A stretch of DNA of 64,000 nucleotides from Tubulanus polymorphus (Eukaryota; Nemertea; Palaeonemertea; Tubulaniformes; Tubulanidae). The notes under the pieces were generated by a model, which searched no databases, was not told where the DNA came from, and saw only the letters and a list, made by a program, of their open reading frames with translations. A program made the translations under genes and the position numbers. Below are positions 2,846 to 62,215 of this stretch, one piece after another. Every line of letters starts with the position of its first letter. Position 1 is the stretch's first letter. The stretch lies in NCBI RefSeq assembly GCF_964204645.1, contig NC_134026.1, positions 15,216,450 to 15,280,449 of the forward strand. Direction: 5' to 3'.

Positions 2846-3245
2846 GTCATCCTTATTACCGAGATGGCGTATTTTACCGAGATCAACCGAGATGAAATTA
2901 AATATAACATATATATTTATTCCTTATCGTTTTTAACACTTGTAATCATGTTATATCAGTAATAAATACCTTCTGAAGTCATATTTTACATATTTTTGAC
3001 TTCAAATACCTTAACACGGTTAGCAATAAAATTTCATTGAATTTGATTGATCGACGATCTCATCTCGGTAAAGTTAAAAGTTATTTTTCTAGAAAAATAT
3101 CCGACGAAATATGTAAAATATGACTCCAGCAGGCATTTATTACTGATATAATATGATTTCAATTGTAAAAATCGATAAGGAATAAATGAATGTGTTATAT
3201 TTAATTTCATCTCGGTAAAATACGCCATCTAGGTAATAAGGATGA
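2846..3245. mobile_element. Foldback/MITE with long inverted arms
   Basis: The left end GTCATCCTTATTACC...GGCGTATTTTACC is matched in reverse complement at 3195-3245. Similarity continues inward through ATATGTAAAATATGA-type sequence, so arms of about 150 bp enclose a short centre. There is no coding capacity. Target-site duplication could not be fixed because the outermost bases disagree between the ends. Confidence 0.65.
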
Positions 3246-4487
3246 CCGAAAACTTCGTTTCGTAACCCATCGACCGATTCGCACGAAATTGGTTTCGTTT
3301 CATTCCTAAGAGGTTACTTTTTCGTTTGAGACCTTCTGCCACAAGATCGGATAAGAGACACCTGAGAAATCACGACTCAAACCCCAAAAAAACGAGTCAA
3401 AATAGCCAAAGCCGGAATTACTAGGACGTCTTGGAGTTGTCGATTTCCGACGAAAAACGATGAGTTGATGCGGTTCCCGGACGTAAATCATCAGATATCA
3501 TACATCGCTGGAAAGCTTATGAACTGACCTTATTGAAAAACGCGTTTATTTAATAACCGTTCTAATACCGGCGACTGGCGAGCTGATAATCCAGATCGAT
3601 CCGGCTGCCAACCCTCCCGAATTATTCGGAACCCTCCCGATTTGCGTGAAGAAATTCCGACGATACGATCGGGTATACAAAATTCCGATTTTTTTTTTTT
3701 CCTTTTTCGGCCATGTCCGATTTTCCACCCGCCAGCGCGTTGTAACACAATATGATGACTTGGTAGAACAGAATTGAAAAGGTGGGGAATTTATATGCAC
3801 GCGGGCGGTGGATGATTGTGTCGCTATATATACTGTGTACGTGGTCGGGCGATAAACAGCGCTTACTAGCGCGCGTGTGTGTGTATGAGAGTAGCTGTGT
3901 TATTGATTTTATCTACGCATGGCACACGATTGTTTCGTTGTAGGAGAGCAGCTTCTTAATTCGTTACAAGAATCAAAATAAAGTTCATTCGTTTTAAAAT
4001 ACGTTGTTTTAAATCATTCTTGTGAAAATATTATTACATGTGGCAAAATGTGATCGTTATTGTCAAATTGCTCCGCATCGTTTCGGAGAAGAATCGGTTT
4101 ACTGCGGTAATTAGCTCGTTTTCGCAGCGCGATGAGCATTCGAAGATCCGGGTTAGATTCAACGTGTGGACTCGTTATTTGTGGTTGAAATGTTTCGGTA
4201 AGCAATTGCTTTGTTAGTTTGAACCTTAATGTTGTCACTCTTGTATTAGTTTGATTTAAAAAGATAATTTAAGATGCTTTTGAGCAGTGCATCTCAAAGT
4301 AAACTTTTAGTTCGCATATTTGGCAGATGACAGCACCATCGAGTTGCATGTAGATTTAGAGACTTTTTACTGTTTGTATCTTTCAGTTTCATACGTGGAG
4401 TCTCTCTGGGACAGTATCGTGGAATTAATGCCGGAAATTGATATATTCGCTTATTGCCATTTTCATGTCGTTTCTTCGTGAAACAGA

Positions 4488-7400
4488 AATGGATTTATTT
4501 ACTGCCACTGAAACAAGATCTTAAGTCGAAGACGAAGAACCTTTTCCCTCCGATGTTGGTGATGACACCGATGACGATCGTGAGCCTCCTCAAAAAATAA
4601 ACCAAAGAAAATGAATCTAGTAAAACAAAGCAGAGGTTTAAGAACGAATATTCTCAGAAATATTCTTTTATTAAACCTAGTTCGCTAGGCCGTTATTACG
4701 CATACTGTGATAGATGTGGTTCGCATATCAGCATATCGCATGGTGGCCTTAATGATATTGAAAAAAAACATTTTTCCACAACTAAACACAAGTCAGCAGC
4801 TAATGTGGAAAAAATCACAAAGTTTTTTAGTACTTCCCAGGAGAAAGAAAGTTTGATCAAGGCCGAGACATTATTCACAGTCTTTGTGGTTATGAACAGT
4901 TTACCTCTCGCAGTTTCCGATAAGGCTGGGCAGCTATTCAGAGATATGTTCCCTGGCCATCCGAATGCTACGAATTATAAATGCGGTCGCACCAAAACAA
5001 CTCATATTGTGAATGTGGTTGCAACTGATATCGTGTCATCTACTGTATCGAGATTGAAATCATCTCCCTTTGTTCTTGGTGTAGATGGTTCTACGTACAA
5101 ACAAGAGACATATTATCCAATCGTTGTGAGATTTGTGGATGAACAGTTAGAAACAAAAGTGGACCTGTTAGCTAACCCAATATGGAATCAGTCGCACACA
5201 GGAGAGGCAATATTTAATATAATCAAAGCAGAATTAGAAGTGAACGCTATACCATGGGAGAATCTACTTTCGCTTGTGTGTGATAACACAAATAGCAATG
5301 TTGGAAGACACAAGGGTGTAATAAAATATGTTAGAGATCACCAAAAAGAGGTACACCTCGCAGGATGCATTAATCATTTGCTCCATTTAGCATTGAAGAA
5401 AGGCCTGAATACAGCCATTAAGGTAACTAAGATTTTACTTTTGATTTCATTTACAATATGTAGTAATTTCACCATTTTCTTATTTTCATCAACTCAGATA
5501 GGATAGCCTTATTCGTTCAGCTTACACGTGCTGCTTTATGGTTTACACATAATCAAATGACATAAACTCAATAAAGTTAAAGTTCTAGAAACTTGTAGTT
5601 GCTATTCTGCTGTACCATTGTTATACTTTCAACGTTTGAAATCGGTGCGCATATCTTTTGTTTACAGCCTTTATTTGACTTCGATGCCCTATTACGCCAG
5701 CTGCATTGGTATGTAACCAAAACGAGTAAAAGATCTGCAAGTTTTCAAGCCATCCAGAAGGAATGCAGCCTGCCAGATCATACGATACTGAAGCATGTGG
5801 CTACAGGCTGGCTGATTATGGGCCCAGCCCTTAGCAGGATGCTGGAACAATGGGAAGCGCTGAGGAGATATTTTGCGAAAGAGATAGGCCATGATACTGA
5901 TGGAGATGATGATCAAGAGTTCCTCGACGATTTTGATTATGGCCCTGTCACCGCAGGGGCGATAAAAACTAAATTACACAAGTTTTTCCAGAGACACACA
6001 TCAAAACTATACACTGCATTTCTGATTAAAGCAATCTCGGTAAGCATTATATCACCAAGTCATAACCCTAAATAATAAGGATTATAAACTTTTTTGTGTT
6101 TTATAAGATTTTATTTCATAAGCTCTTATGATTTCTTTTTTAGCCCACTTAGGACTTTAGTCCCAGCGGGCTATTGCGTTCACTTTTCGTCCGTCCGTTC
6201 GTCTGTCCGTAGACGGAATCCAGTTATTTTGGGAAGTTTTGAAGACGCTTCAAGGTAATGTCTTGATATTTGGGTTACACATGTATCTACCCTAGACACA
6301 TCTTCAGCCCAAAAACTGGCCCTGTCAGAATCAAGATGGCAGACTGGCAGCCATTGTTGTTCACCAAAATCAGCACTTTTTACACATTTTTGAACTTTTT
6401 GAGGGAAATTTTGAAGACGCTTCGATCAATTACCTTGATCTTTCGGATATACGTGAATCCCCCCTCCCCCCAGGGCCCATCAACATAACAAAAATTGGGT
6501 CGGTCGGACTCAAGATGGCCGTCCTATGACCTTTTTAGTGCCCAAAAATGTTAATTTTGACCCAAATTCTGAGTCCTGTAGCTTCCTACTGGTTTGCCAT
6601 TTCTCATTACAATTTGTGATGGGTATTCTTTGGAAAGGGATGTTTTATACCTGAGAAAGGTATTTTTCATCAGCCAATTATGACGCAATTGGCGGCCATC
6701 TTGGTGTCACCAGTACTCATTCGTAAGTTGGAAAAAGTTTTTCCACATTATATTGATACCTAAGCGTATTTTGCTACCACAATCAATTAGAAAGTTGTAG
6801 CTCATAACGTGGTCTATGATTGTGGTGAGTTTCAAGGTAATTGGATTTCGTATATGGCCACCAGGGGGCGTTAAATAATACAATATCTTAGCATTTCTTT
6901 ATTATATTCGTATCAATGCATATTTTGTAACCACAATCAATTGGAAAGTTGTAGCTCATGACATCATCTATGATTGTTGCGAGTTTTAAGGACATAAGTT
7001 TTTCTATATGGTCACCAGGGGGCGTTGAATAATAGAATAACTTAGTATTTCCTTATTATATTGGTACCTAGGCATATTTTGTTACCATGATCAATTGCAA
7101 AGTTGTAGTTCGTGACATATTCTATGATTGTGGTGAGTTTCGAGGTCATTGGGTTTTGAATATGGTCACCAGGGGGCGTTGAATAGTAGAACGACTTAGT
7201 ATTTCCATATTAAATTGGTAACAAGGCATATTTTGTCATCACAATCAATTACAAAATCGTAGCTGCTGACATGTTCTATGATTTTGGTGAGTTTCAAGGT
7301 CATTGGATTCTGTATATGGTCACCAGGGGGCGTTGAATATTGAAATTGTTAGATTGTTGAGCAGTTGAAACCACTTCCCAAGTGGGTATGGTGTCCCTGG

Positions 7401-10460: not shown

Positions 10461-12400
10461 CACTTTCACTGCTGCATTGCATAGCATTGTTGCCTAGCTA
10501 TGCTGGGCCCGTTTCGGGAAAAATAGGAAATTATTATATTCTGAGAATAAATGAATATAGAAGCATATTAGCCTACCTTTACTTGTTTTATTCACTTATC
10601 TCCAATATTGAGCTTTTGTGTGATACATTCTGAAGCAGTTTGGGTTTGCAATGTGTAGTGGTACCCCACATTCTTTGCACATGTAACAAGTGTCTTTACG
10701 GATTCCTTTTTTCGCACAAACCCGACAGCGTCTTTGAGCATTTGTTTTCTTGTCAGTAGCTGGTATTGTGACAATTGTATGTCTTCTCATGGCAGGGCTA
10801 ATTCTAGTAGGTGGGTCACTTGTACACCTAGGCACTGGAGGGCGCACAGCAGGAGCAGGATCATCTGCATCGGAATCAGCATCGTCATTCAGCGTATTTC
10901 CATGTACAACCATTGCTTTGATCACCGAGGTCAAAAAGTCCAACAGCTCCTCAGAGGCCTTGCGATACTTCTTGAACAGAATATGAGCATTTAGGAGTCC
11001 AAGATGAATCAAGTAATAAACCAATTTTTTGGGCCACTTCACGGTTTTTCGAGTGCACGGGTAATATTTGCCCATTTGATCAAGATGATCGACACCGGAC
11101 ATATATCTATTGTAATCCAAAATGCATTTTGGTTTTTGCACCTGATGTCCACCAGCATTCACATGATCTGCCTTTGAAGCATCATGTAGAGTAGTAATCA
11201 TCTTCACAACCCTTTTATCTTTCCACATAAGAAACAGAATTTGTCCTTTGCGGCGAAATGCGACATCACCAACGCCAAGTTGATTTTCCTGATCTCTCAA
11301 TGATTTTGGCATTCCCCTATTTACTCTGACAGTTCCACAGGTGTGGGTTTTCTTGGAAAACAGGTGGGTGGATACAGTGAGACTATTATGAAAATTATCC
11401 ATATACACCTTATAGTTTTTTTGATACAAAGATGTCAGTAAATCATCACAGATTTGTACATTGGACCGACCGAGACCACAGTATAAGCTATAGCCGTACA
11501 CATATCCACTTTCAGATTCACAGAGAATATAACCCTTCATCCCGTATTTGATGGGTTTCTTGGGATTATAAACACGAAACAGCAAGCGGCCGCGCCACTT
11601 GAGCATGCCTTCATCCAGTGCGAGATGCTCAGTTGGTACATATATTGACATGAACTTCTGTATGAAAAAATCATAGACTGGCCGCACTTTATATAATCGG
11701 TCATTATCATTTGCTGGCCTAGCATCATTATCATGAAAATGAAGAAACTTGCATATCAACAAAAATCTGTCTCTAGACATCACTGTTCCAAAGAAAGGTG
11801 TAGCAAACATGACATCGGTTGACCAGTACATATTTAGTGTTGGCTTTTTGATAATGCCGGTAAGAAAAAGCAGTGCGAGAAAGTGCACATCTCTTTCTCG
11901 GTGACATCTTTCCAGCTGTGTACTCTAGATTTATCTTTCAGCTCAGTGTCCCTAATGTACTGTTCAGCGTACAAATTAGTTTCACGCACAAGAATGTCAA
12001 TAAGTTCATCGGTAAAAAAAAGTCGAAAATAATCGAAAGGAGTCGCATCGACACCTATCTGAACCTGCATACCTGGCGTACCGGTAAATGGGTCAACATT
12101 TGGTTGTGTATCAACATCACTCCATCCTACATCTGAAGGATGCATGCCTCCAGGGGCATTTACAACATTAGCAGCACCTCTGCCCCTACCTCTCCCGCGT
12201 CCACGGCCCCGTGCACGGCCGCGAGGACCTCCACGTCCACGATTATTTTGTACAGCGACTGGGGCAGGTGGTTGAAAATTATCGTCATTATTTTTTTTTA
12301 TATTGTGAAACATTTTTTTTTGAAAATATAAAATAATTTCGCTGCCACATCTACCTGTACCCTACAAACTTTTTGACGTGGACCGTAACCAAATGTATAT
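10461..12400 (-). mobile_element. piggyBac transposon remnant (piggyBac-1)
   Basis: TTAA followed by CACTTTCACTGCTGCATTGC resembles a piggyBac inverted terminus, one base from the CCCTTTCA-type start seen in the MITE at 32021. It encloses a minus-strand transposase pseudogene. I could not find the opposite terminus before the next repeats, so the 12400 limit is approximate and that end may be deleted. Confidence 0.6.
10596..12313 (-). pseudogene. piggyBac transposase, one frameshift
   Basis: The N-terminal frame (12313 down to about 11890) has an RG-rich basic stretch and an acidic segment, then ...SWKDVTEKEM. The larger frame (about 11888 to 10596) continues the same protein: FLALLFLTGIIKKP, YWSTD, then the three acidic catalytic positions of the family in LALDEGM (D92 of that frame), VYMDNF (D164) and YMSGVDHLDQM (D267 with D270). 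It ends in a cysteine-rich domain (CRVCAKKG, CYMCKECGVPLH). One missing base (or two extra) near 11884-11891 separates the frames, so the protein is not made intact. piggyBac transposases perform TTAA-specific cut-and-paste. All DDD residues are kept, so inactivation looks recent. Confidence 0.92.
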
Positions 12401-18839: not shown

Positions 18840-21097
18840 ATCAGGGGGGGTTGATAAAGGATTAAAAAATCCGTGGAAATGGAATTGGTTAGAGACCGTT
18901 ATCGAGGATGTTCCCCTCGCTGAATGTATAAGAAAAATCAGCATTGCTGGAAGAGCATTATGCATCTGGTGCAACAGCGAAATAAACTATGGTGCACGGG
19001 GAAAGGTTGCTATTACTGATCACGTAAAAGCAAAAGAACACAAAGATATAGATAAAGACAGAAGAAGTAATTACAAACTACCAGGTATGCCTCCTTTGTT
19101 TTTGAACCAAAAATTTTACCCAAAAACGTCGTAGTAGCCTAAAGTCTCTACAAGGTTGAGCTTTAACTTTCCTTTCCTTTATTAATGGAAGTTGGATCAT
19201 CTGTAGGTAATTTTTTGTCTCTAAATTTCTTTAATTGTACGACGGAAAGACAGAAATGCCCTGTCGCACTTACAAATGTCCAGAGTTACAGCATCGTACA
19301 AAATGAAACATGGCTTGGCCAAGACATTTTCAGATCAGTTAAATGAAGAACTAAATGAGAACTTCTTTTCTCTCCACATCGATGAAGCAACAAGTTTAAG
19401 TCTGAAAAAAGTTCTTTCTATTCTCGCCAGTTTTTATTCACCCGTCGAGAAAAAAATCGTGTTTCGTCATGTCTCTTCACTTGGGGTCATCTCGGCTAAA
19501 TGTGAAAGTATTTTTAACGAGGTCATTGGTGAGTTGGACCGTCGGCAGATATCTTATGATTATTTAATGTCCATTCTTGTTGATTCATGTAATGTCATGC
19601 GTGGCTGCAGATCCGGGTTCGAGACCAGGTTGCGTGATAAGGTCCCTCACCTTCTAAACATCGATGGCGACTCGGCGCACCACGTACACAATTCGTCAAA
19701 ACAGTTTACCAATTGTTTTGATAAAGTGATCGAAAAGCTAATTACAGATCTGTACAATGATTTGAAATGGTCACCTGACTTGCGCGATGATTACCTTCGT
19801 AAAATATGTTCTTTGTTAGGATTTAACTTCACGATGTCCGAAAGATATGTTGTTACCAGGTGGCTGTCTTTGCACGATGCCGCTGTTGATTTAGAACGTA
19901 AGTTAGAAGCCTACACAGTGTTCTACTTCGGTTTTTTAATTCAGGTAATCGCGTTATATATCTAGCCCGTTAATCGACGCTTGGGTATTTCAGAACCTGC
20001 ACGAGATCGCATTAAAGAGATACAGTCAGCTGTAAAAAACAAGAAACTTACTGAGGACGGCAAAGCAAGAAAAAAATCGAATTACCGATCGATTGTTTGT
20101 CGACCGAAAACGGACAGTTATGTACCTGAATTTCCTGATTTCAGTTTTGCCTGTTCTGAAAAAATACGTTCTGAAAGTTCAAAAGCGAGAGCCGTTGATA
20201 CATAAGCTTATTGATGAACAAGTCAGTGTATTCCGGGAATTTCTCTGTTGCTTTATTCGGCCTGACAAGATCCCTGCCGATGATCGAAAATTAGTTAGTG
20301 TCGATATTGATCTTTGTACGATGAAACCGAGTGAAATGTTTGTTGGAGACAAAGCCTCAAAACTTATCAGTGAGAATCCAAAAGATCCACTTGTCAATGA
20401 ATTTTACGACAAAGTCAGAAAGGCCTACATCTCTTGTGCTAAATATTTGGCAAAGAAACTACCGCTTAACAGTAAGACACTGTTACGTATAGCTGCAATT
20501 GATCCAGCATGTCGCGGTCATACCTTGACCTTGAAATATCTAAAGGATTTGCCAAATATAGCAACACATGTTCTGAATTCAGATGAGGTTGATAGCTATC
20601 AACTTGAGGTACACCGTTACACGGCTGACAAGACGCTCCCAGAAGCTATTTCTGATGAGTCAATACCGGTGCCTATAGACGAATGGTGGTCGCACGTGGC
20701 TAAAGCATATCCTAATCTTTCAAAAATGGTATTTGCGCTCCTAAGTTGCTTCACATGCCCACTAGTTGAAAGTTCATTCAGCAAAATGTCGAATATTGTG
20801 GATACTACATCCAACCGGTTGAATATATCAACATGCAGTGCCTTACAGACAGTGAAGTATTCGTTGGCTGGAAAGTCGGCTGTGGATTTTTTCAATAGAA
20901 ATGACATTCGCCGCGATCCCATCCATCCCACGGGTTTGAACATAATGGCTTCAGCTGCACAAGTTTATAAGCAAGAACTCGAAGAAACAAAAGAAAAGCG
21001 GGAATCTCATTTAAAAGCTATCCAAGCATGGAAAACTGAAACAATCTCAAAAACGAAAAGCAAGAGAAACGAATATCGAGATGGCGAAAAGAGCTAG
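18840..21097 (+). pseudogene. hAT-2 transposase, one A-run frameshift
   Basis: The first exon (about 18840-19084, GT donor) encodes NPWKWNWLE, IRKISIAGRALCIWCNSEIN and DHVKAKEHK, a zinc-finger DNA-binding module (C-x2-C ... H-x5-H). The next exon (about 19206-19944) encodes NALSHLQMSRVTASYKMKHG, then FFSLHIDEATS (the first acidic catalytic region) and the VDSCNVMRG and DSAHHVHN segments of the catalytic fold. The third part (about 19993-21097) ends in the dimerisation segment CPLVESSFSKMSNIVD and a Lys/Glu-rich tail. The frame shifts at the A-run at 20069-20077, splitting RIKEIQSAVKNKKL from VLPVLKKYV. Otherwise nearly intact, so inactivation is probably recent. Confidence 0.9.
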
Positions 21098-41095: not shown

Positions 41096-41873
41096 TTTCA
41101 GCCATCGAAACTCAAAAGGAGCAAATTAATCGATTGTAAATAGGTCGATAAGCTGTAATTTAATTTTGTATAATTTTGTTATTTTTTGCTTTCGATAGTA
41201 TGGCTTTTTGATGGCGAGGTCTACTTGTAGTTCCGTTGAAAGGCCCACAGATTTCTTGTTTTAAAGTAAAAAATTTCTGATACATGTAGTAAATCTTTCT
41301 TAAAATAAAGCTGAAAGATTCCAAAGTTATCAAGTACTCTGCTACGCGTGGATGTTTCTTTATGATGATTTGCGTTTGTACTTTTAAATTTCTGCAATAA
41401 AGGAATTTTCATTGCAATAAATTCGCCTTAAATGCTGTTAAGTGTTTATATGGTATTTTTCAGAAAATAGTACTTGAATTTTGTTGAAATAGGTCATTGA
41501 AAGTACTTGAATTAAGTTGGGCCTGGAGGCTATGAACCCTGTTTTAAGATGTTATTCCACAGACGGCAGGGGAGAGCAGTATCATTGATTTTATTTTCTT
41601 CTATTCTTCAACAAGAGGTTTCGCCCAAGTCTCTTCTGGACTTGAACTGTGAGTGCTACTGGGACTCACAAAAAAAACCAAAAAGCTTCTAGGGATAAAA
41701 GAGACACCCCCTCATACACCAGACGCTTCAATCGGCTTTCTGACTGACTTCCACACCTCAATGGGGATGCAGGCCTTCGTTTCAGGCTCATCTTTTTTGT
41801 CTGCGGCAAATTACGGGACCCTCCTGTTTTTCAAAGGGACCTGGCTTGTCAAATTATTATTGAAAACACGGTA

Positions 41874-42815
41874 TTGAGATTAAACTTTATTTTTATATAT
41901 AAAGGGGCGCGCGATGAAAATACCCCTAATGTTGGGTACCAAGTTGTGACCGATCTCACTGATATTGCATCTCCAGGACAGGCCGTATTTTGTGACAATT
42001 TCTTTACATCCTGTAAACTTTTGGCAGATTTGAAAGCTTGTGGTATTGGTTGTTGTGGAACTGTCAAATGTAATCGGGAAGGTAACCCTGATGAATTGAA
42101 GATATTCAAAAAATCTACGCGGAAAGCCGTTCTCGTCGAGAAATCATCCTTATTCATGTGGAACGACACCACCAACATATTGGCGGTTGGATGGTTTGAC
42201 AAGCGCCCTGTGTGTTTGCTGTCCAGCGTTGATGCATCTACAACTATTGTCAAGAGAATTCGGGCAAGAAATGGGGAAAATGGATATCGGGAGATCATCA
42301 AACCCACTGCGATCGACAACTAAAACACGTATATGGGAGGTGTTGACAAGTCTGACCAGTTCAATTCATATTTCATGTTATTGCATCGATCGTGCAAATG
42401 GTGGAGGAAGGTATTCTTCCATTTACTTGTTACTGCAGTTACCAATTCTTATGTTTTACATAAGGTCTCAGACCCAAATGCAAATAAGAGACTAACTGTA
42501 AGAGAATTCCGCCTCTAACTTTGTGATGAACTTCTGGAAAACCATCAGCCTTCATCATCCACCCCCGGACACCGCGTTGCTGACCCCCCACTGCGCCTGA
42601 ATGGTCTTGCCCACTTAATGGAGAAGACTAATGGAAGACCTGATTGTGCAGTTTGTACGATAAGAACTGGCAAAAAATATGCATACCGTAAACAAACACA
42701 GAAACAATGTAAGACATGTGTGCCCCATGCCCCATTATGTGATATTCCATGCCATGAGATCTACCACACGGTTTCAGACTACAAAAGATACTACAGGGAG
42801 AATTATCACCATTAA
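41874..42815 (+). pseudogene. piggyBac transposase C-terminal part, two nonsense codons
   Basis: One continuous frame interrupted only by TAA at 42321-42323 and TAA at 42516-42518. Segments: GYQVVTDLTDIASPGQAVFC with the catalytic AVFCDNFFTS, a CCGTVKCNR turn and VGWFDKRPVCLLSS. After the first stop come NTYMGGVDKSDQF (the third catalytic Asp region; the stop replaces the usual Tyr) and WWRKVFFHLL. After the second stop comes a cysteine-rich tail (CAVCTIRTGKK, CKTCVPHAPLC, CHEIYH). It differs from piggyBac-1, so two lineages are present. Dead, but with few lesions. Confidence 0.9.
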
Positions 42816-45214: not shown

Positions 45215-46527
45215 AGCCCACTTGGGACTTGAGTCCCAGCGGGCTATTGCTTCCACTTTTCGTCCGTCGTCCGTCCGTCCGAAGACGGAATCCAGTTATT
45301 TTGGGAAGTTTTGAAGACGCTTCAAGGTTATGTCTTGATATTTGGTTTATACATGTATCTACCCTAGACACATCTTCAGCCCAAAAACTGGCCCTGTCAG
45401 ATTCAAGATGGCTGACTGGCAGCCATTGTTGTTCGCTAAAATCAGCACTTTTTACACATTTTCCAAAATTTCGAGGGAAATTTTGGAGACGCTTTGATCA
45501 ATTCCCTTGATCTTTGGTTTATATTTGAATCAACCAAGGGCCATATCAGCATAAGAAAAATTGGGTCGACCTGACAATTTGTGATGGGTATTCTTTGGAA
45601 AGGGATGTTTTATACCTGAGACAGGTATTTTTGATCAGCCAATTATGACACAATTGGCGGCCATCTTGGTGTCATCAGTACTCACTTGAAGGTGGGAAAA
45701 AGTTTTTCCACATTAAATTCATGCCTAAGCATATTGTGTTACTATATTCAATTGGGAAGTTGTAGCCCATAACGTGTTTTATGATTTTGGTGAGTTTCAA
45801 GGTCATTGGTTTTTGTATGTGGCCACCAGGGGGCGTTGAATAATACAATAACTTAGTATTTCTATATTATATTTGTACCTATGCATATTTTGTTACCACA
45901 ATCAATTGCAAAGTTTTAAGTCATGACATCTTCCATGATTTTGGTGACGTTTAAGGACATTAGTTATTCTATATGGTCACCAGGGGTGTTGAATAGTAGA
46001 ATAACTTAGTATTTCCTTATTAGATTGGTACCTAGGCATATTTTATTACCATGGTCAATTGCAAAGTTGTAGTTCATGACATCGTCTATGATTGTGGTGA
46101 GTTTTTAAGGACATTAGTTATTCCATATAGTCACCAGGGGGCGTTGAATAGTAGAAAAGCTTAGTATTTCCTTATTAGATTGGTACCTAGGCATATTTTG
46201 TTACCATGGTCAATTGCAAAGTTGTATTCCATGACATGTCCTACGACTGTGGTGAGTTTTAAGGTCATTGGGTTTTGCATATGGTCACCAGGGAGCGTTG
46301 AATAGTAGAATAACTTAGTATTTTCCATATTAAATTGGTAACGAGGCATATTTTGTTATCACAATCAATTACAAAATCATAGCTGCTGACATGTTCTATG
46401 ATTGTGGTGGATTTCAAGGTCATTGGTTTTGTTTGTGGTCTCTAGGGGGCGTGATGTATTGAAATTGTTAGATTGTTGAGCATTTGAAACCACTTCCCAA
46501 GTGGGCATGGTGTCCCTGGACCCCTAG
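45215..46527 (+). mobile_element. Helentron-like element, copy D (best preserved)
   Basis: 5' AGCCCACTTGGGACTTGAGT (with hairpin GGGACTTGAGTCCC), 3' CCACTTCCCAAGTGG and CCCTGGACCCCTAG, T on both sides. Perfect 12-bp inverted subterminal pair. Five tandem units carry (T)CACCAGGGGGCGTTGAATA-like words near 45830, 45980, 46135, 46290 and 46440. 1.3 kb, no coding capacity. Confidence 0.75.
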
Positions 46528-53165: not shown

Positions 53166-54494
53166 CTCTGGAAAGGGATGTTTTATACCTGAGACAGGTA
53201 TTTTTGATCAGCCAATTATGATGCTATTGCGTTCACTTTTCGTCTGTCCGTCCGTTGTAGCATTCGTCCGTCCGTTGTAGCATTCGTCCGTCCGTCCGTC
53301 CGTAGACGGAATCCAGTTATTTTGGGAAGTTTTGAAGACGCTTCAAGGTAACGTCTTGATATTTGGGTTACACATGTATCTACCCTAGACACATCTTCAG
53401 CCCAAAAACTGGCCCTGTCAGAATCAAGATGGCCAACTAGCAGCCATTGTTGTTCGCCAAAATCAGCACTTTTTACACATTTTTGAACTTTTTGAGGGAA
53501 ATTTTGAAGACGCTTTGATCAATTAGCTTGATCTTTCGGATATATGTGAATCCCCCCAGGGCCCATTAACATAACAAAAATTGGGTCGGTCGGACTCAAG
53601 ATGGCCGTCCTATGACCTTTTTAGTGCCCAAAAATGTTAATTTTGGCCCGAATTCTGAGTCCTGTAGCTTCCTACTGGTTTGCCATTTCTCATTGCAATT
53701 TGTGATGGGTATTCTTTGGAAAGGGATGTTTTATACCTGAGACAGGTATTTTTCATCGGCCAATTATGACGCAATTGGCGGCCATCTTTGTGTCACCAGT
53801 ACTCATTCGTAAGTGGGAAAAAGTTTTTCCACATTATATTGATACCTAAGCGTTTTTTGCAACCACAATCAATTAGAAAGTTGTAGCTCATAACGTGTTC
53901 TATGATTGTGGTGAGTTTCAAGGTAATTGGATTTCGTATATGGCCACCAGGGGGTGTTGAATAATACAATATCTTAGCATTTCTTTATTATATTCGTACC
54001 TATGCATATTTTGTAACCACAATCGATTGCATAGTTGTAGCTCATGACATCATCTATGATTGTTGCGAGTTTTAAGGACATTAGTTTTTCTATATGGTCA
54101 CCAGGGGGCGTTGAATAGTAGAATAACTTAGTATTTCCTTATTATATTGGTACCTAGGCATATTTTGTTACCATGATCAATTGCAAAGTTGTAGTTCATG
54201 ACATGTTCTATGATTGTGGTGAGTTTCGAGGTCATTGGGTTTTGAATATGGTCACCAGGGGGCGTTGAATAGTAGAATGACTTAGTATTGCCATATTAAA
54301 TTGGTAACGAGGCATATTTTGTCATCACAATCAATTACAAAATCGTAGCTGCTGACATGTTCTATGATTGTGGTGAGTTTCAAGGTCGTTGGTTTTTGTA
54401 AATGGTCACCAGGGGGCGTTGAATATTGAAATTGTTAGATTGTTGAGCATTTGAAACCACTTCACAAGTGGGCATGGCGTCCCTGGACCCCTAG
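53158..54494 (+). mobile_element. Helentron-like element, copy F
   Basis: Begins with a fragment of the element's own interior (GGAAAGGGATGTTTTATACC), then the 5' region without its first 25 bases. GTCCGTCCGTTGTAGCATTC has been duplicated there. The rest is nearly identical to copy A: four tandem units, CCACTTCACAAGTGG hairpin, GACCCCTAG at 54494 and T after. High similarity to copy A suggests recent common origin. Confidence 0.7.
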
Positions 54495-55943: not shown

Positions 55944-56360
55944 TGCTAATTGATGCTTGACCTTGTTTCTTGATAATGATGTCAATATGAGAACCCTTTA
56001 GCATTCAAGTTCATTATACAGAGAACAGACATTATATTGATTGTTCTGCCATTTGCCTGGGGAGAACCTATTACAGTGCTTCATCAGTAATAGGGGTAAT
56101 GGGCTTTCAGATCAAAGGTCGAACGGTCGAGCTCATTAAAAAACAAAACATTAAAAGTAATTTAAAACTATAATATATTTTCATAACCGTGTGCATTTTA
56201 TATTAAAACTAAATATTTATTCTAAGATATCAATAATTTAAAAAGCATATTGTATTAAATCAATTGGTCGCTCCACTTCGCTACCGCTCCGCTCCGCGAA
56301 TAACATATAAATTGATAGATTATTCAATATAAAAGTGTTATTAAAGTGTGAGTAAAAAAG

Positions 56361-56660
56361 TAACGAGTAATTAACGAGCTCTTTTAAATAGATATATAGA
56401 TATATTTTAAACATATTTCAATATTTATATTTGTATGAGTTAGATTTTTAAACATAAAAAGTGTGAGTAAAGTGTGAGTGAAATAATTCATATTTAAATC
56501 ATTGAATATTTATATTTATATGTGTTAAATTCTTATTTTCAGTATAAAAGTAACGAGTAATTAATGAGTGAGATAATTCATATTTAAAACAGTGAATATT
56601 TATATTTATGTGCGTTAAATTCTTATTTTTTAACATAAAAAGTAACGAGTAATTAACGAG
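56361..56660 (+). promoter_or_regulatory. Iteron-like TAACGAGTAATTAA(C/T)GAG words and TATA box
   Basis: TAACGAGTAATTAACGAG occurs at 56361, 56551 (one change) and 56643, the last abutting the ORF start. TATAAAAG lies at 56543, beside the second word. GTGTGAGTAAA words repeat between them. Mirrored at 60390-60690. Probable promoter or protein-binding repeats; no direct evidence of use. Confidence 0.55.
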
Positions 56661-56663
56661 TTG

Positions 56664-57272
56664 ATGAAAATATCAATTTTAATAACAAAATTACTTATAA
56701 ATATGAATGAACAGATACTACAGTTCAAAGATATCGATTTAAATGAATTAGAAAAATATTTTACAATTAAAAATTTCATTCCTATTAAAGATTTGATTAA
56801 AACTGCGCGTCTTCGTTTTCAAGTGAAAAATATTACTGAATTAGTGTTTAAAAATCACTATCTGATAATAGAGTTATCGAATGATAAAGATAAAATCTTA
56901 TTCAATACAATAATTCCAAAATTCACAACATTTGATGGAATAGATAAACATTTAATAATTACAGATGAAATGCAATCACTTTTTAATGATGAAAGTACAT
57001 TATTAAATCATAAAACATTATTTTTACACTTACGTTATTGCCCATTCAGAGAATGCTATGTTATGTTTTTCAGATTACAAGAAAAGAGATTTATCCCTGA
57101 CATTCCAAATGAAAAATCATATAAAGATGTTGGAATTCAATGTAATTTAGATAATGAAATTGTTGCGCCTAAATATAATCCTAATGAAAGCGTTTTATGT
57201 AATTGTGGAAAATATTATACTCGAAGCAATAAATCACACCATCTTAAATCAAAATATCATAACACATATTAA
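56664..57272 (+). CDS. Zinc-finger-like ORF in left inverted repeat, 202 codons
   Basis: Intact ORF from ATG 56664 (a second Met at 56703 gives 189 codons). Not recognised as a known enzyme. The body is lysine/isoleucine-rich and mixed alpha/beta in character (DIDLNELEKYFTIKNFIPIK; ELSNDKDKILFNTIIPKFTT). A KDVGIQCN segment precedes the C-terminal CNCGKYYTRSNKSHHLKSKY motif. That motif has the spacing C-x-C-x11-H-x5-H (Cys179, Cys181, His193, His199), a compact zinc-finger of a kind seen in ORFs of virus-like elements. The duplicate on the other arm differs at two residues, so both are conserved by selection, recency or gene conversion. A DNA- or RNA-binding role is inference only. Confidence 0.75.
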   Translation: MKISILITKLLINMNEQILQFKDIDLNELEKYFTIKNFIPIKDLIKTARLRFQVKNITELVFKNHYLIIELSNDKDKILFNTIIPKFTTFDGIDKHLIITDEMQSLFNDESTLLNHKTLFLHLRYCPFRECYVMFFRLQEKRFIPDIPNEKSYKDVGIQCNLDNEIVAPKYNPNESVLCNCGKYYTRSNKSHHLKSKYHNTY

Positions 57273-57363
57273 AGATAAAAACTAATAACATAACCGATGA
57301 TTTAAAAACATTAAAACATCATTTTGATTTCAGTAACTATCCTAAAGATCATGAATTGTTTAG

Positions 57364-57870
57364 CATGAAATGATAAATTGTTTGACAGTTGAAGTGATAA
57401 ATTGTTTGACAGTTGAGATGATAAATTGTTTGGCAGTTGAAATGATAAATTGTTTGACAGTTGAAATGATAAATTGTTTGACAGTTGAAATGATAAATTG
57501 TTCGACAGTTGAAGTGATAAATTGTTTGACAGTTGAAATGATAAATTGTTCGACAGTTGAAATGATAAATTGTTGGACAGTTGAAATGATAAATTGTTGG
57601 ACAGTTGAAATGATAAATTGTTTGACAGTTGAAATGATAAATTGTTTGACAGTTGAAATGATAAATTGTTTGACAGTTGAAATGATAAATTGTTTGACAG
57701 TTGAAATGATAAATTGTTTGACAGTTGAAATGATAAATTGTTCGACTGTTGAAATGATAAGACAGTTGAAATGATAAATTTTTTGACAGTTGAAATGATA
57801 AATTGTTCGACAGTTGAAATGATTAGACAGTTGAAATGATAAATTGTTTGAATGTCGAAATGTTAAATTG
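57364..57870 (+). repeat. 24-bp minisatellite, left array (about 21 units)
   Basis: Unit TGAAATGATAAATTGTTTGA CAGT with sporadic G/C/T variants at the TTTGAC position and two shortened units. Because 24 is a multiple of three and lacks stops, it reads as an octapeptide repeat; I treat that as accidental. Confidence 0.95.
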
Positions 57871-57972
57871 TTTGGTTGTAAATTTAATTGTTATTCGATT
57901 TGAAACATATAAAAGTTAAATATTTCTAAAATATCAAATATTTATCAATTTAATAATTTTTTTCTTAAATAA

Positions 57973-58191
57973 ATGGATGGTTTCATTCCAACTGGGAAAA
58001 GTGATTTGAAACATTATTTAGTTGCTGGAGGTTTAATATTAGCAGCATTATATTTTTACTATGAGAATATTTCAGAAGATTTGATGAATGAAAATAATAA
58101 ATTGAGTAAAAAATTAAAGAAGTTAAATGGAAACAATCACAGAAATAGAAAGAATAAAAAAGTTAATTTAGAAAATGATTTAGAGGATTAA
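57973..58191 (+). CDS. Small single-pass membrane ORF, 72 codons
   Basis: ATG 57973, TATA-like ATATAAAAG about 70 bp upstream. Short hydrophilic N-terminus, one hydrophobic helix at residues 15-30 (YLVAGGLILAALYFYY), then a charged helix with heptad-like Asn/Leu/Lys spacing and a strongly basic tail (about residues 45-65). No family recognised. Small membrane proteins are common in virion and virus-like gene sets, but that role is speculation. Codon use is very AT-rich, like its neighbour. Confidence 0.55.
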   Translation: MDGFIPTGKSDLKHYLVAGGLILAALYFYYENISEDLMNENNKLSKKLKKLNGNNHRNRKNKKVNLENDLED

Positions 58192-58229
58192 AACAGCATC
58201 TTTTAATTTCATATATTTTGACTATAAAA

Positions 58230-58532
58230 ATGAGTGAAAATATATTAAACTTATTACATCTAATATATAAAAATCAACAGAATATTAAATCAATTATTAT
58301 GCTTACAGGTTTATTTTCTTTTTCAATTTATAGTATAAAACAGTTGTTAGAATTCTATGATTGCTGTAAAATTAGATACACTGAATTAATAGAAAATATA
58401 AATTATATTTCAGATAGATTGAATAATATTAAATGCTGTGAAGTATGTAATAAAAGATATAAAAATTTAAAGAGTTTAAAAACTCATAAATATATTCATG
58501 AACTTGATGAAAAATTATATGATTCAAAATAA
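58230..58532 (+). CDS. Membrane-segment plus C2H2 zinc-finger ORF, 100 codons
   Basis: ATG 58230 with TATAAAA immediately before it. The ORF lies 38 bp after the previous stop on the same strand. A hydrophobic segment spans residues about 21-40 (SIIMLTGLFSFSIYSIKQLL). The C-terminus has a canonical C2H2 finger, CEVCNKRYKNLKSLKTHKYI ending in His90: Cys70-x2-Cys73-x12-His86-x3-His90. The combination of membrane segment and classic finger is odd for a host gene. Function unknown. Confidence 0.6.
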   Translation: MSENILNLLHLIYKNQQNIKSIIMLTGLFSFSIYSIKQLLEFYDCCKIRYTELIENINYISDRLNNIKCCEVCNKRYKNLKSLKTHKYIHELDEKLYDSK

Positions 58533-58574
58533 GAAATCGACTGTTAAATTAGCTGAAAATATAAAATATATTAA

Positions 58575-58630
58575 AAAAAAACAATAAGTTAAATAAGTTA
58601 GTATTAGATAAAGTAACTTATTGTTTTTTT
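58575..58630. terminator. Perfect 17-bp inverted repeat hairpin
   Basis: AAAAAAACAATAAGTTA (58575-58591) pairs with TAACTTATTGTTTTTTT (58614-58630) around a 22-base loop, just after the last central ORF. Could end transcription or be a replication/packaging structure; the role is inferred. Confidence 0.6.
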
Positions 58631-58848
58631 ATTTAAATCTTTTTGATTTCTATTCGCGCTATTGGTTAACAAGAATTGACTAGAATTCAAATAGATTTAA
58701 CAAGAAATTCAATAACTTTAACTGTTAGTATCACTCTTGTATTATTTCATTGTTTTTATTGAATAAGCCAACTAACTAATATCACTCTTGTATTATCCTA
58801 GTCAAATGTAAAGAATTTACAATATCATACTTGAATGAATTAAAACAT

Positions 58849-59691
58849 ATCATTTCAACTGTCAAACAATTTATCATTTCAACTGTCAAACAATTTATCA
58901 TTTCAACTGCCAAACAATTTATCATTTCAACTGTCAAACAATTTATCATTTCAACAGTCAAACAATTTATCATTTCAACAGTCAAACAATTTATCATTTC
59001 AACTGTCAAACAATTTATCATTTCAACTGTCAAACAATTTATCATTTCAACTGTCTTATCATTTCAACCGTCAAACAATTTATCATTTCAACTGTCAAAC
59101 AATTTATCATTTCAACTGCCAAACAATTTATCATTTCAACTGTCAAACAATTTATCATTTCAACAGTCAAACAATTTATCATTTCAACAGTCAAACAATT
59201 TATCATTTCAACTGTCAAACAATTTATCATTTCAACTGTCTTATCATTTCAACTGTCAAACAATTTATCATTTCAACTGTCAAACAATTTATCATTTCAA
59301 CTGTCAAAAAATTTATCATTTCAACTGTCAAACAATTTATCATTTCAACTGTCAAACAATTTATCATTTCAACTGTCAAACAATTTATCATTTCAACTGT
59401 CAAACAATTTATCATTTCAACTGTCAAACAATTTATCATTTCAACTGTCAAACAATTTATCATTTCAACTGCCAAACAATTTATCATTTCAACTGTCGAA
59501 CAATTTATCATTTCAACTGCCAAACAATTTATCATTTCAACTGTCGAACAATTTATCATTTCAACTGTCGAACAATTTATCATTTCAACTGTCAAACAAT
59601 TTATCACTTCAACTGTCAAACAATTTATCATTTCAACTGTCAAACAATTTATCACTTCAACTGTCAAACAATTTATCATTTCATGCTAAAC
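58849..59691 (-). repeat. 24-bp minisatellite, right array (about 35 units)
   Basis: Same unit as the left array, inverted, with shortened units at about 59050-59065 and 59235-59250. About 14 units longer than the left array, so the two arms are unequal here. Confidence 0.95.
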
Positions 59692-59779
59692 AATTCATGA
59701 TCTTTAGGATAGTTACTGAAATCAAAATGATGTTTTAATGTTTTTAAATCATCGGTTATGTTATTAGTTTTTTTCATCT

Positions 59780-60388
59780 TTAATATGTGTTATGATATTT
59801 TGATTTAAGATGGTGTGATTTATTGCTTCGAGTATAATATTTTCCACAATTACATAAAACGCTTTCATTAGGATTATATTTAGGCGCAACAATTTCATTA
59901 TCTAAATTACATTGAATTCCAACATCTTTATATGATTTTTCATTTGGAATGTCAGGGATAAATCTCTTTTCTTGTAATCTGAAAAACATAACATAGCATT
60001 CTCTGAATGGGCAATAACTTAAGTGTAAAAATAATGTTTTATGATTTAATAATGTACTTTCATCATTAAAAAGTGATTGCATTTCATCTGTAATTATTAA
60101 ATGTTTATCTATTCCATCAAATGTTGTGAATTTTGGAATTATTGTATTGAATAAGATTTTATCTTTATCATTCGATAACTCTATTATCAGATAGTGATTT
60201 TCAAACACTAATTCAGTAATATTTTTCACTTGAAAACGAAGACGCGCAGTTTTAATCAAATCTTTAATAGGAATGAAATTTTTAATTGTAAAATATTTTT
60301 CTAATTCATTTAAATCGATATCTTTGAACTGTAGTATCTGTTCATTCATATTTATAAGTAATTTTGTTATTAAAATTGATATTTTCAT
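59780..60388 (-). CDS. Zinc-finger-like ORF in right inverted repeat, 202 codons
   Basis: Mirror copy of the 56664-57272 ORF, also intact, with two differences (LVFENH for LVFKNH and HLSYC for HLRYC). The zinc-finger-like Cys/His set and all other motif residues are the same. The two copies are transcribed towards the centre, towards the central genes and the arrays. Product and role unknown. Confidence 0.75.
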   Translation of the reverse strand: MKISILITKLLINMNEQILQFKDIDLNELEKYFTIKNFIPIKDLIKTARLRFQVKNITELVFENHYLIIELSNDKDKILFNTIIPKFTTFDGIDKHLIITDEMQSLFNDESTLLNHKTLFLHLSYCPFRECYVMFFRLQEKRFIPDIPNEKSYKDVGIQCNLDNEIVAPKYNPNESVLCNCGKYYTRSNKSHHLKSKYHNTY

Positions 60389-60962
60389 CAACTCGTTAAT
60401 TACTCGTTACTTTTTATGTTAAAAAATAAGAATTTAACGCACATAAATATAAATATTCACTGTTTTAAATATGAATTATCTCACTTGTTAATTACTCGTT
60501 ACTTTTATACTGAAAATAAGAATTTAACACATATAAATATAATATTCAATGATTTAAATATGAATTATTTCACTCACACTTTACTCACACTTTTTATGTT
60601 TAAAAATCTAACTCATACAAATATAAATATTGAAATATGTTTAAAATATATCTATATATCTATTTAAAAGAGCTCGTTAATTACTCGTTACTTTTTTACT
60701 CACACTTTAATAACACTTTTATATTGAATAATCTATCAATTTATATGTTATTCGCGGAGCGGAGCGGTAGCGAAGTGGAGCGACCAATTGATTTAATACA
60801 ATATGCTTTTTAAATTATTGATATCTTAGAATAAATATTTAGTTTTAATATAAAATGCACACGGTTATGAAAATATATAGTTTTAAATTACTTTTAATGT
60901 TTTGTTTTTTAATTAGCTCGACCGTTCGACCTTTGATCTGAAAGCCCATTACCCCTATTACT

Positions 60963-62215
60963 TTCATCTAGCCAAAAATAGAGAGACGGCAATGAAATGT
61001 CTCGTATGATATCAACGATAGTAGCTCATGTGATCAGTGGTTATATTCAAATGTACTGCAGTCAGTGTGCATCGTGTGAAAACGTGCCTCAGATACGTGG
61101 CCTAGTTTAAGTTTCCAGGAAATTGGCTGACTTCCAAACTACTGCCAATCATTCTAGCGACTGCCGTTGTAAAGCTGGTAGTGTATATTCGATGCATTGT
61201 TTCGTTTTGAACACATCGTGATGCTCTGGATCTTTTTATCTAGACTATTAGACAAATTTTATATATACAAGGTGAAAAACTTTGTTTGGTGAACTCACAG
61301 AGAGACTCGCAGAGACAATTAGTTTGAGTAGCCTAATAGCAATAATGTTTTCTTAAACTGGCTGCTTACCAATTATCAACAGTTACTTGCCAATCACTAA
61401 CACTATCAATTCAAATAAATTAATTTGATATTTCTAAGATTAAGAATATGCAATTTCATGTAGGCCGATACACTATTGCTGACTCTTTTTCGCTGTATCA
61501 TTTGCTTTTTGAGATTGATTTTTTCTGCTATTTTTGTATGCAACTGGTTGTCCAAATCATTTTGAATGCCCTTTCTATCATATTATTGATTAACTTATGT
61601 TCATTGACAGGCATAGGTATAAGGATGTACTGTGGTCAAGTGTGTCTGTCACTCATGGCAAAATCAGACTTAAAGATAGTTTCTACTCCTCAATCGTAGT
61701 AGGGGGTACCTCGATTCTATGCATTAGGGAACATTGCAGTTTTCCCCCTAAAACAGACGTGAGTGCGTTATTATGTGCCCTTGCTCCGATGGAATCACGC
61801 ACAAAAATGCCCTTATTTGAAATCAGCACCCTGCCCTTTTTAATGCTAGATGAAGCACTGTATTACTATATTGTTTATCATCATAGCTGAACCTGCAGAT
61901 TACAGTCATGTTATGCACCAAGATTTTATCGTTTTATGTGAAGCTATTGAGAATATCACAACAAATCAATTTTCGTGATGAAAAAAAAGAACATATATAG
62001 TACAGCTAAGATTGCATTGGCATTCAGGCACATTCCGAATGCACGTGTTGTGCATTTCAAAGTTTACGATACACATGAACATAACATGTTCAGTTCAACA
62101 CACAAACCTTGTGTAATTAAATGTTAGCATATCAATAAATGCTAGGTTTTGTATATGGTTAAGGCCAAAATGTAGAGGCCATACAAAATGAATCAATGGG
62201 CTAAGCTATGTTTTA
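60963..62215. other. Flanking intron with one dispersed repeat
   Basis: 61050-61185 is the second copy of the repeat at 9848 (AGTGTGCATCGTGTGAAAAC). Overlapping plus ORFs at 61448-61699 and 61597-61890 have no motif and no splice context; not called. Confidence 0.45.

Follow-up and report, generated by a model that had tools for sequence, protein, structure and literature searches.

A compact, probably non-autonomous Polinton-like family with long inverted arms and a conserved gene cassette in Tubulanus polymorphus

A 4,877-bp element in the genome of the nemertean Tubulanus polymorphus appears to be a non-autonomous, satellite-like Polinton that carries its own gene cassette and would be copied and inserted in trans by full-size relatives, a reading that we hold with moderate confidence. 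The element occupies positions 56086-60962 of a 64,000-nt stretch (NC_134026.1, 15,216,450-15,280,449), which is called the window and is numbered 1-64,000. The compact family to which it belongs is probably a trans-mobilised, non-autonomous Polinton family with a conserved cassette. An earlier note on the window had offered two alternatives, a non-autonomous element moved by a full-size relative or a lineage with its own genes. The first is supported because the window element has 214-bp ends and 6-bp duplications in common with full-size elements and an arm gene in common with a full-size-type end, and because it holds PolB-like relics. As for the second, the small open reading frames (ORFs) are indeed conserved, and there is no sign that they take the place of the Polinton machinery.

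The element lies between perfect TTCATC duplications and its termini read AGT...ACT, both as described in the earlier note. Two inward-facing copies of the 19-bp end AGTAATAGGGGTAATGGGC are present in the window (≤3 mismatches; 0.00 expected from 100 shuffles), and ends of this type recur genome-wide. Self-comparison resolves two inverted arms with 96.9% identity, tandem-array differences counted in, and arm sub-blocks of 779 nt and 338 nt are complementary at 99% and 100%, respectively. The arms measure about 1.8 kb, within the 1.8-2.1 kb first proposed, and the unique centre is about 1.25 kb rather than about 1 kb. The extreme AT richness noted earlier is evident from a guanine-plus-cytosine content of 23.7%, compared with 35-42% in 2-kb bins outside the element. 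All four small ORFs are intact, a 202-amino acid (aa) frame present twice (ORF202) and frames of 72 aa (ORF72) and 100 aa (ORF100). Two 24-bp tandem arrays of unequal length, one per arm side, are a feature absent from the earlier note. The element is organised as follows.

56080..56085, no strand: left target site duplication TTCATC (direct reading)
56086..56132, plus strand: left 47-bp terminal core, with few substitutions across all 28 sampled ends (alignment)
56086..56299, plus strand: 214-bp left end, matching each end of the full-size copy C5:13456211-13474533 at 98.6% identity
56086..57892, plus strand: left inverted arm, element coordinates 1-1807 (self-comparison)
56664..57272, plus strand: ORF202, the outer arm gene, with a C-terminal CxC...H...H cluster seen by eye (ORF call)
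57264..57376, plus strand: left-arm relic of a PolB-like gene, 113 bp, 92% identical to the C5 full-size copy, the gene being one we take to be PolB
57366..57874, plus strand: 24-bp tandem array, about 22 copies, occupying the position where the compact copy L042 carries a 758-aa gene, ORF758
57953..57976, plus strand: gene-start motif, a T-run followed by TTAAATAAATGG, resembling that of four genes that surround the weak capsid match in the C5 copy
57973..58191, plus strand: ORF72, with a hydrophobic stretch seen by eye, strongly conserved (ORF call and relatives' alignment)
58230..58532, plus strand: ORF100, conserved, with a C2H2 finger match at E = 7e-4, below the Pfam cut-off (profile search)
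58848..59683, minus strand: 24-bp tandem array, about 35 copies (repeat analysis)
59146..60962, minus strand: right inverted arm, element coordinates 3061-4877 (self-comparison)
59673..59788, minus strand: right-arm relic of the PolB-like gene, 116 bp, 90% identical to the C5 full-size copy
59780..60388, minus strand: second copy of ORF202, differing from the first at 2 of 609 nt
60752..60962, minus strand: right end, 211 bp, 96.7% identical to the ends of the full-size copy C5:13456211-13474533
60916..60962, minus strand: right 47-bp terminal core (alignment of 28 ends)
60963..60968, no strand: right target site duplication TTCATC (direct reading)

The first 215 bp of the element was used to query the 267.8-Mb genome, which gave 1,076 first-look candidates, and the best 40 were scored. 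Full-size copies with the same ends were found in this search, which the earlier note had proposed. Among the best 40, six inward-facing end pairs stand 16.7-21.8 kb apart by eye. The 214 bp of end common to the window element and the full-size elements is 97-99% identical. The ends of four full-size pairs were fetched, and three have perfect 6-bp duplications (AGTATG, AGCAGT and TATGTC); the fourth has none. In this pair without a duplication, C1:15255150-15273403 (L033, L034), one flank is an inverted repeat of the other. The inverted arms of the four full-size pairs are 0.4-0.6 kb long versus 1.8 kb in the window element. The full-size ends (L029-L036) are imperfect palindromes of about 400 bp, in which the 214 bp is followed by an inverted, ~80% identical copy of positions 1-186. 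One folded full-size end folds well (z = -4.29), and a hairpin at the window element's own end is unsupported (z = +0.46). The window copy is without the inner half of this palindrome; L041 and L054 keep a form of it.

The full-size copy C5:13456211-13474533, 18,323 bp long, was examined as four separate pieces and encodes a Pox_A32 ATPase (E = 7.7e-12, above the Pfam cut-off). An integrase frame matches Chromo (E = 5.5e-5), rve (0.041), IS481 (3.6e-8) and IS3 (7e-5), all below the curated cut-offs, and a weak capsid match is present (Capsid_N, E = 0.0066, below cut-off). A long frame, which matches Endonuclease_7 below the cut-off, adjoins pieces that we take to be Polinton PolB. The gene is called PolB-like because no profile or PDB search confirmed it as PolB. 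Matches of the long frame to PRDM9 fingers were set aside, no stretch passing, and they leave the PolB label unconfirmed. No transposase of a different superfamily was seen between the same ends in this copy, the one read through its length.

The compact set comprised 17 candidates, the window element and 16 fetched stretches (locus labels L0xx). Both outer ends are recognisable in seven of them, and all seven have perfect 6-bp duplications; the fetched stretches of the remaining 10 showed no recognisable pair of outer termini facing each other. The two-ended copies measure 4,877 (window), 5,491 (L039), 6,742 (L040), 5,304 (L041), 7,741 (L042), 4,632 (L051) and 5,017 bp (L052). Three of these seven (L039, L040 and L052) keep all three genes open in both arms. 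Empty sites, a check also proposed in the earlier note, were found for two copies. When the flanks of L039 are joined, all 300 bases align gap-free, at 97.7% identity, to window 53855-54154 in a 154-bp repeat, and 26-27 bp across the joined junction of the window element is unbroken, at 100%, in other copies of its target repeat. Arrays of a 154-155-bp repeat lie at window positions 6736-7339, 45701-46428 and 53822-54425, and the same repeat forms the L039 empty target site.

The cassette genes extend well beyond the sampled copies, with at least 157 genome matches to ORF202 and at least 150 each to ORF72 and ORF100. Among the matches listed, most ORF72 and ORF100 frames are open and many ORF202 matches are partial or broken. 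Positions were analysed for 131 ORF202, 150 ORF72 and 150 ORF100 matches. They form at least 249 clusters, 88 with two of the gene kinds, 20 with all three and the others with one. The order 202-72-100 is followed by all 133 same-strand neighbours within 3 kb and broken by none. By eye, the listed Polinton and satellite matches are apparently mostly mid-chromosome.

The 24-bp unit occurs in 13 of the 17 compact candidates, one of which has just one unit, and none of the 10 full-size pieces contains it. The array was considered as a coding repeat (MINCLTVE), and this was rejected by inspection because 17-bp units interrupt the reading frame and most variants of the unit alter a residue.

The 15 compact and 13 full-size-type ends that were aligned share about 47 bp of core sequence, in which substitutions are few. 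Beyond the core there are two types of compact end: that of the window element and L039 resembles the full-size ends, and the other differs from them. The same ends stand on very different interiors, which suggests that the cis-acting part of the end lies within these ~47 bp. The window element, L040, L041, L042, L052 and others retain relics of full-size genes. When 21 C5 frames of at least 100 aa were compared with the window element, the short relics were the sole matches; L042 has a longer PolB-like relic of 205 bp, and L040 and L052 carry relics of the 3' end of the ATPase gene.

The arm gene is also shared. At the full-size-type end L065, the outermost gene is a relative of ORF202, and window positions 57108-57263, at the 3' end of ORF202, match it at 95.5% identity over 156 bp. 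The same locus carries a 268-aa frame also found in the C5 copy, and an ATPase gene lies about 4 kb off; the first 19 bp of its terminus was unrecognised at ≤4 mismatches. Because an ORF202 relative is outermost at L065, both compact arms look like an ORF202-bearing Polinton end, which would fit the copying of one end onto the other. Three tandem matches to a 294-aa ORF202 relative, 2,744 bp apart, lie at C10:6058627-6064672, and L065 spans one of them.

The gene-start motif (a T-run, then WWATAAATGG) is found in the full-size pieces only at the starts of the four source genes around the weak capsid match. It recurs where ORF72 begins in the window copy, and likewise at each of the two ORF72 starts in L039, and it is nowhere in the window's other 59 kb (0.00 and 0.02 occurrences on average in shuffles).

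The ORFs of the window element gave no significant profile match to a polymerase, rve integrase, packaging ATPase or capsid protein. The profile searches that the earlier note had called for thus bear out its statement that known replication genes are missing. Judged by its gene content, the element fails on every enzyme as an autonomous Polinton. It has the ends and some sequence of a resident full-size element without the enzymes of that element, the mark of a non-autonomous derivative. PHROGs matches of the window ORFs were taken as chance (best E = 0.0016 to a family of unknown function; head protein, E = 0.17). Searches of 5.8 billion proteins found no homologue of ORF202 (72 candidates) or of the ORF72 alignment (183 candidates). 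Searches of IMG/VR with ORF100, ORF72, ORF758 and the ORF758 alignment, and of prokaryote genomes with the ORF758 alignment, returned pattern matches and no confirmed relative; both collections may leave out records near the window's genome. PDB sequence searches gave nothing for ORF202 or the ORF758 alignment and only chance-level matches for ORF758. The predicted structure of ORF202 is uninformative (predicted local distance difference test score of 38).

Selection on the cassette was estimated from the ratio of nonsynonymous to synonymous rates (dN/dS) in pairs with dS of 0.05-1. The median dN/dS is 0.145 for ORF72 (16 distinct frames, 102 pairs) and 0.262 for ORF100 (16 of 19 frames, after removal of 3 short ones; 102 pairs), and the ratio is below 1 in 102 of 102 pairs for each gene. 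Variable sites at codon positions 1, 2 and 3 number 14, 12 and 40 of 69 each in ORF72 and 30, 19 and 53 of 100 each in ORF100. Both genes look to be under selection. For ORF202 the median is 0.623 (26 of 38 frames, after removal of 12 short ones; 254 pairs); the corresponding variable sites are 15, 13 and 22 of 199 each in the window-like group and 126, 80 and 124 of 215 in the other group.

These results are consistent with the following model. The compact elements would have arisen from a Polinton lineage that lost nearly all core genes, and the ends that they keep would be those recognised by the full-size replication and integration machinery. One end may have been duplicated onto the other in a copy-back (snap-back) manner, which would place the ORF202 end and a PolB-like scrap in both arms. 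Full-size Polintons of the same genome would then copy and insert the element in trans. ORF72, ORF100 and ORF202, in some relatives with ORF758, would form a recurrent cassette kept by selection, with a role, for example, in virion assembly or competition with the helper. A true satellite class, which would combine a selected cassette with use of the helper's terminal origin and integrase, co-expression with capsid-side genes through the shared start motif, and travel in helper particles, is a tentative extension that we judge possible rather than probable.

Several observations weigh against trans mobilisation of a selected cassette. Movement itself was not observed; trans mobilisation, helper dependence and packaging are what we infer from comparison of the copies. 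Pfam, NCBIfam and PDB sequence searches of the PolB-like frames found no polymerase match, and the account of the full-size elements draws on one copy read through and on ATPase relatives of which 150 of 1,575 first-look candidates were scored (the best 150, all at ≥94% identity). The ends were found by similarity with the first 19 bp as the search criterion, and the conservation of those positions is therefore by construction. Clear empty sites were obtained for only two of the seven junctions; in comparisons of the other five with the sequences already retrieved, L041 aligned to another flank, with gaps, and no match was seen for the remaining four. Eight of the 10 compact sequences examined lack the strict start motif, and two of these (L042 and L043) keep CTTAAATAAATGG after an interrupted T-run. 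The dN/dS pairs share ancestry, and the values are therefore descriptive. ORF202 is weakly constrained by this measure (median 0.62) and often broken. A single gene of the three is present in 141 of the 249 clusters among the matches listed. At L046, ORF758-72-100 lies next to sequence that matches the PolB-like part of the C5 copy at 96% over 1,425 bp, and some of the selection could go back to a parental Polinton of this kind.

The last two points also serve the strongest rival, that the compact elements are plain deletion derivatives moved in trans, with ORF202, ORF72 and ORF100 as passengers conserved by selection in a larger parental Polinton lineage. Compact copies do hold relics of full-size genes, and L046/L066 (C6:17272604-17282412) joins a PolB-like region, a 122-aa gene, ORF758, ORF72 and ORF100, an arrangement which suggests that a larger element with the cassette existed. 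L066 has its right end at 1213, and the L046:2105 terminus has the same orientation, though a left end should face the opposite way; the six bases beside the latter are the reverse complement of those beyond the L066 right end. This single case, of which all but ~2.2 kb was read, is possibly an element of about 10 kb whose left end was later inverted. Against the passenger explanation, the cassette genes are no nearer to the best 150 of the 1,575 ATPases than chance (14 of 150 within 20 kb, compared with 12.9 expected from shifted positions), dN/dS is below 1 in every ORF72 pair, and gene order is kept throughout the same-strand neighbours. We regard this rival as unlikely, while giving it the most weight among the competing explanations.

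The idea that the cassette is foreign to all full-size Polintons was revised because of L065 and L046, with short DNA matches of 33-67 bp to the C5 copy inside ORF202 pointing the same way. The 52 frames of the C5 copy gave no convincing match to ORF72, ORF100, ORF202 or ORF758. The best hhalign probability was 11% (frames of at least 100 aa), and the best hmmsearch values were E = 0.005 at 8 bits for ORF202 and E = 0.012 for ORF100.

An independent lineage that acquired Polinton ends and had its own replication protein, with ORF758 as the initiator and the window copy as an ORF758-less derivative, is very improbable. ORF758 is a large gene present in some relatives, and neither it nor any of its five homologues has a Walker A pattern. 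Metagenomic relatives of ORF758 (P0002-P0006) come from 2-4-kb contigs. Long, near-identical inverted arms pose a problem for assembly, but arms made from a misassembled or collapsed repeat can be dismissed almost entirely, since the same design recurs at separate places, each with its own sequence differences and perfect duplications, and two copies (L039 and the window element) have empty sites.

Comparison with known systems places the element closest to Polintons/Mavericks. Vertebrate Mavericks have ends of the (AGT)2//(ACT)2 type and 6-bp duplications, according to one report (PMC8097293). The window element shares the 6-bp duplications and the AGT...ACT ends with these autonomous, 15-20 kb elements, and with the resident full-size elements it also has in common 214 bp of end sequence at 97-99% identity and relics of one of their genes. 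It differs in being about one quarter of their size, in its own cassette and longer arms, and in having no recognisable polymerase, integrase, ATPase or capsid gene. Transpovirons of Mimiviridae have inverted repeats, a tandem repeat, a finger protein, a small hydrophobic protein and a marker helicase, as given in their description (PMC7031253). Terminal inverted repeats and a tandem repeat are also found in the window element, which may likewise depend on another agent; its counterparts to the two small proteins would be ORF100, with its sub-cut-off C2H2 match, and ORF72, with the hydrophobic stretch seen by eye. Unlike transpovirons, the compact elements sit in chromosomes between 6-bp duplications and lack the conserved helicase, there being no Walker A pattern in the ORF758 group and no large gene in the window copy. 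The likeness to transpovirons is one of layout only, as drawn from their descriptions. Virophages and Polinton-like viruses differ from the window element in that its ORFs have no significant capsid match.

Adenovirus copy-back, or snap-back, defective genomes are palindromes with one end on both ends and a short unique centre. The compact elements share the duplicated end and short centre and differ in their many host-genome integrations and conserved genes. Foldback-type transposons have very long inverted arms with internal tandem repeats and belong to other transposase superfamilies; long, tandemly repeated arms are common to both, whereas the ends of the compact elements are those of resident, probable Polintons.

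No description of such a family was found in the accessible portions of the open-licence literature; Repbase, a possible home of non-autonomous Polintons, was outside the search. Further literature is cited here (PMC4028283, PMC6431247, PMC10120064, PMC12220804). If the proposal is true, a gene-carrying parasite that relies on Polintons would point indirectly to an active helper cycle and so bear on whether they still act as viruses, and the satellite class would be a chromosomal counterpart of transpovirons and virophages. The genome, with many full-size relatives suggested by the ATPase candidates, would then offer a system for testing trans-replication, packaging and satellite-helper conflict.

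Matches to other transposons lie elsewhere in the window. A hAT C-terminal dimerisation region lies at 20036-21097 on the plus strand (E = 1.3e-8), and an open frame at 19225-19965 has no match. Two overlapping frames at 10596-12361 on the minus strand match DDE_Tnp_1_7 (E = 1.8e-74), presumably of the piggyBac type, and a second transposase fragment lies at 41748-42323 on the plus strand.

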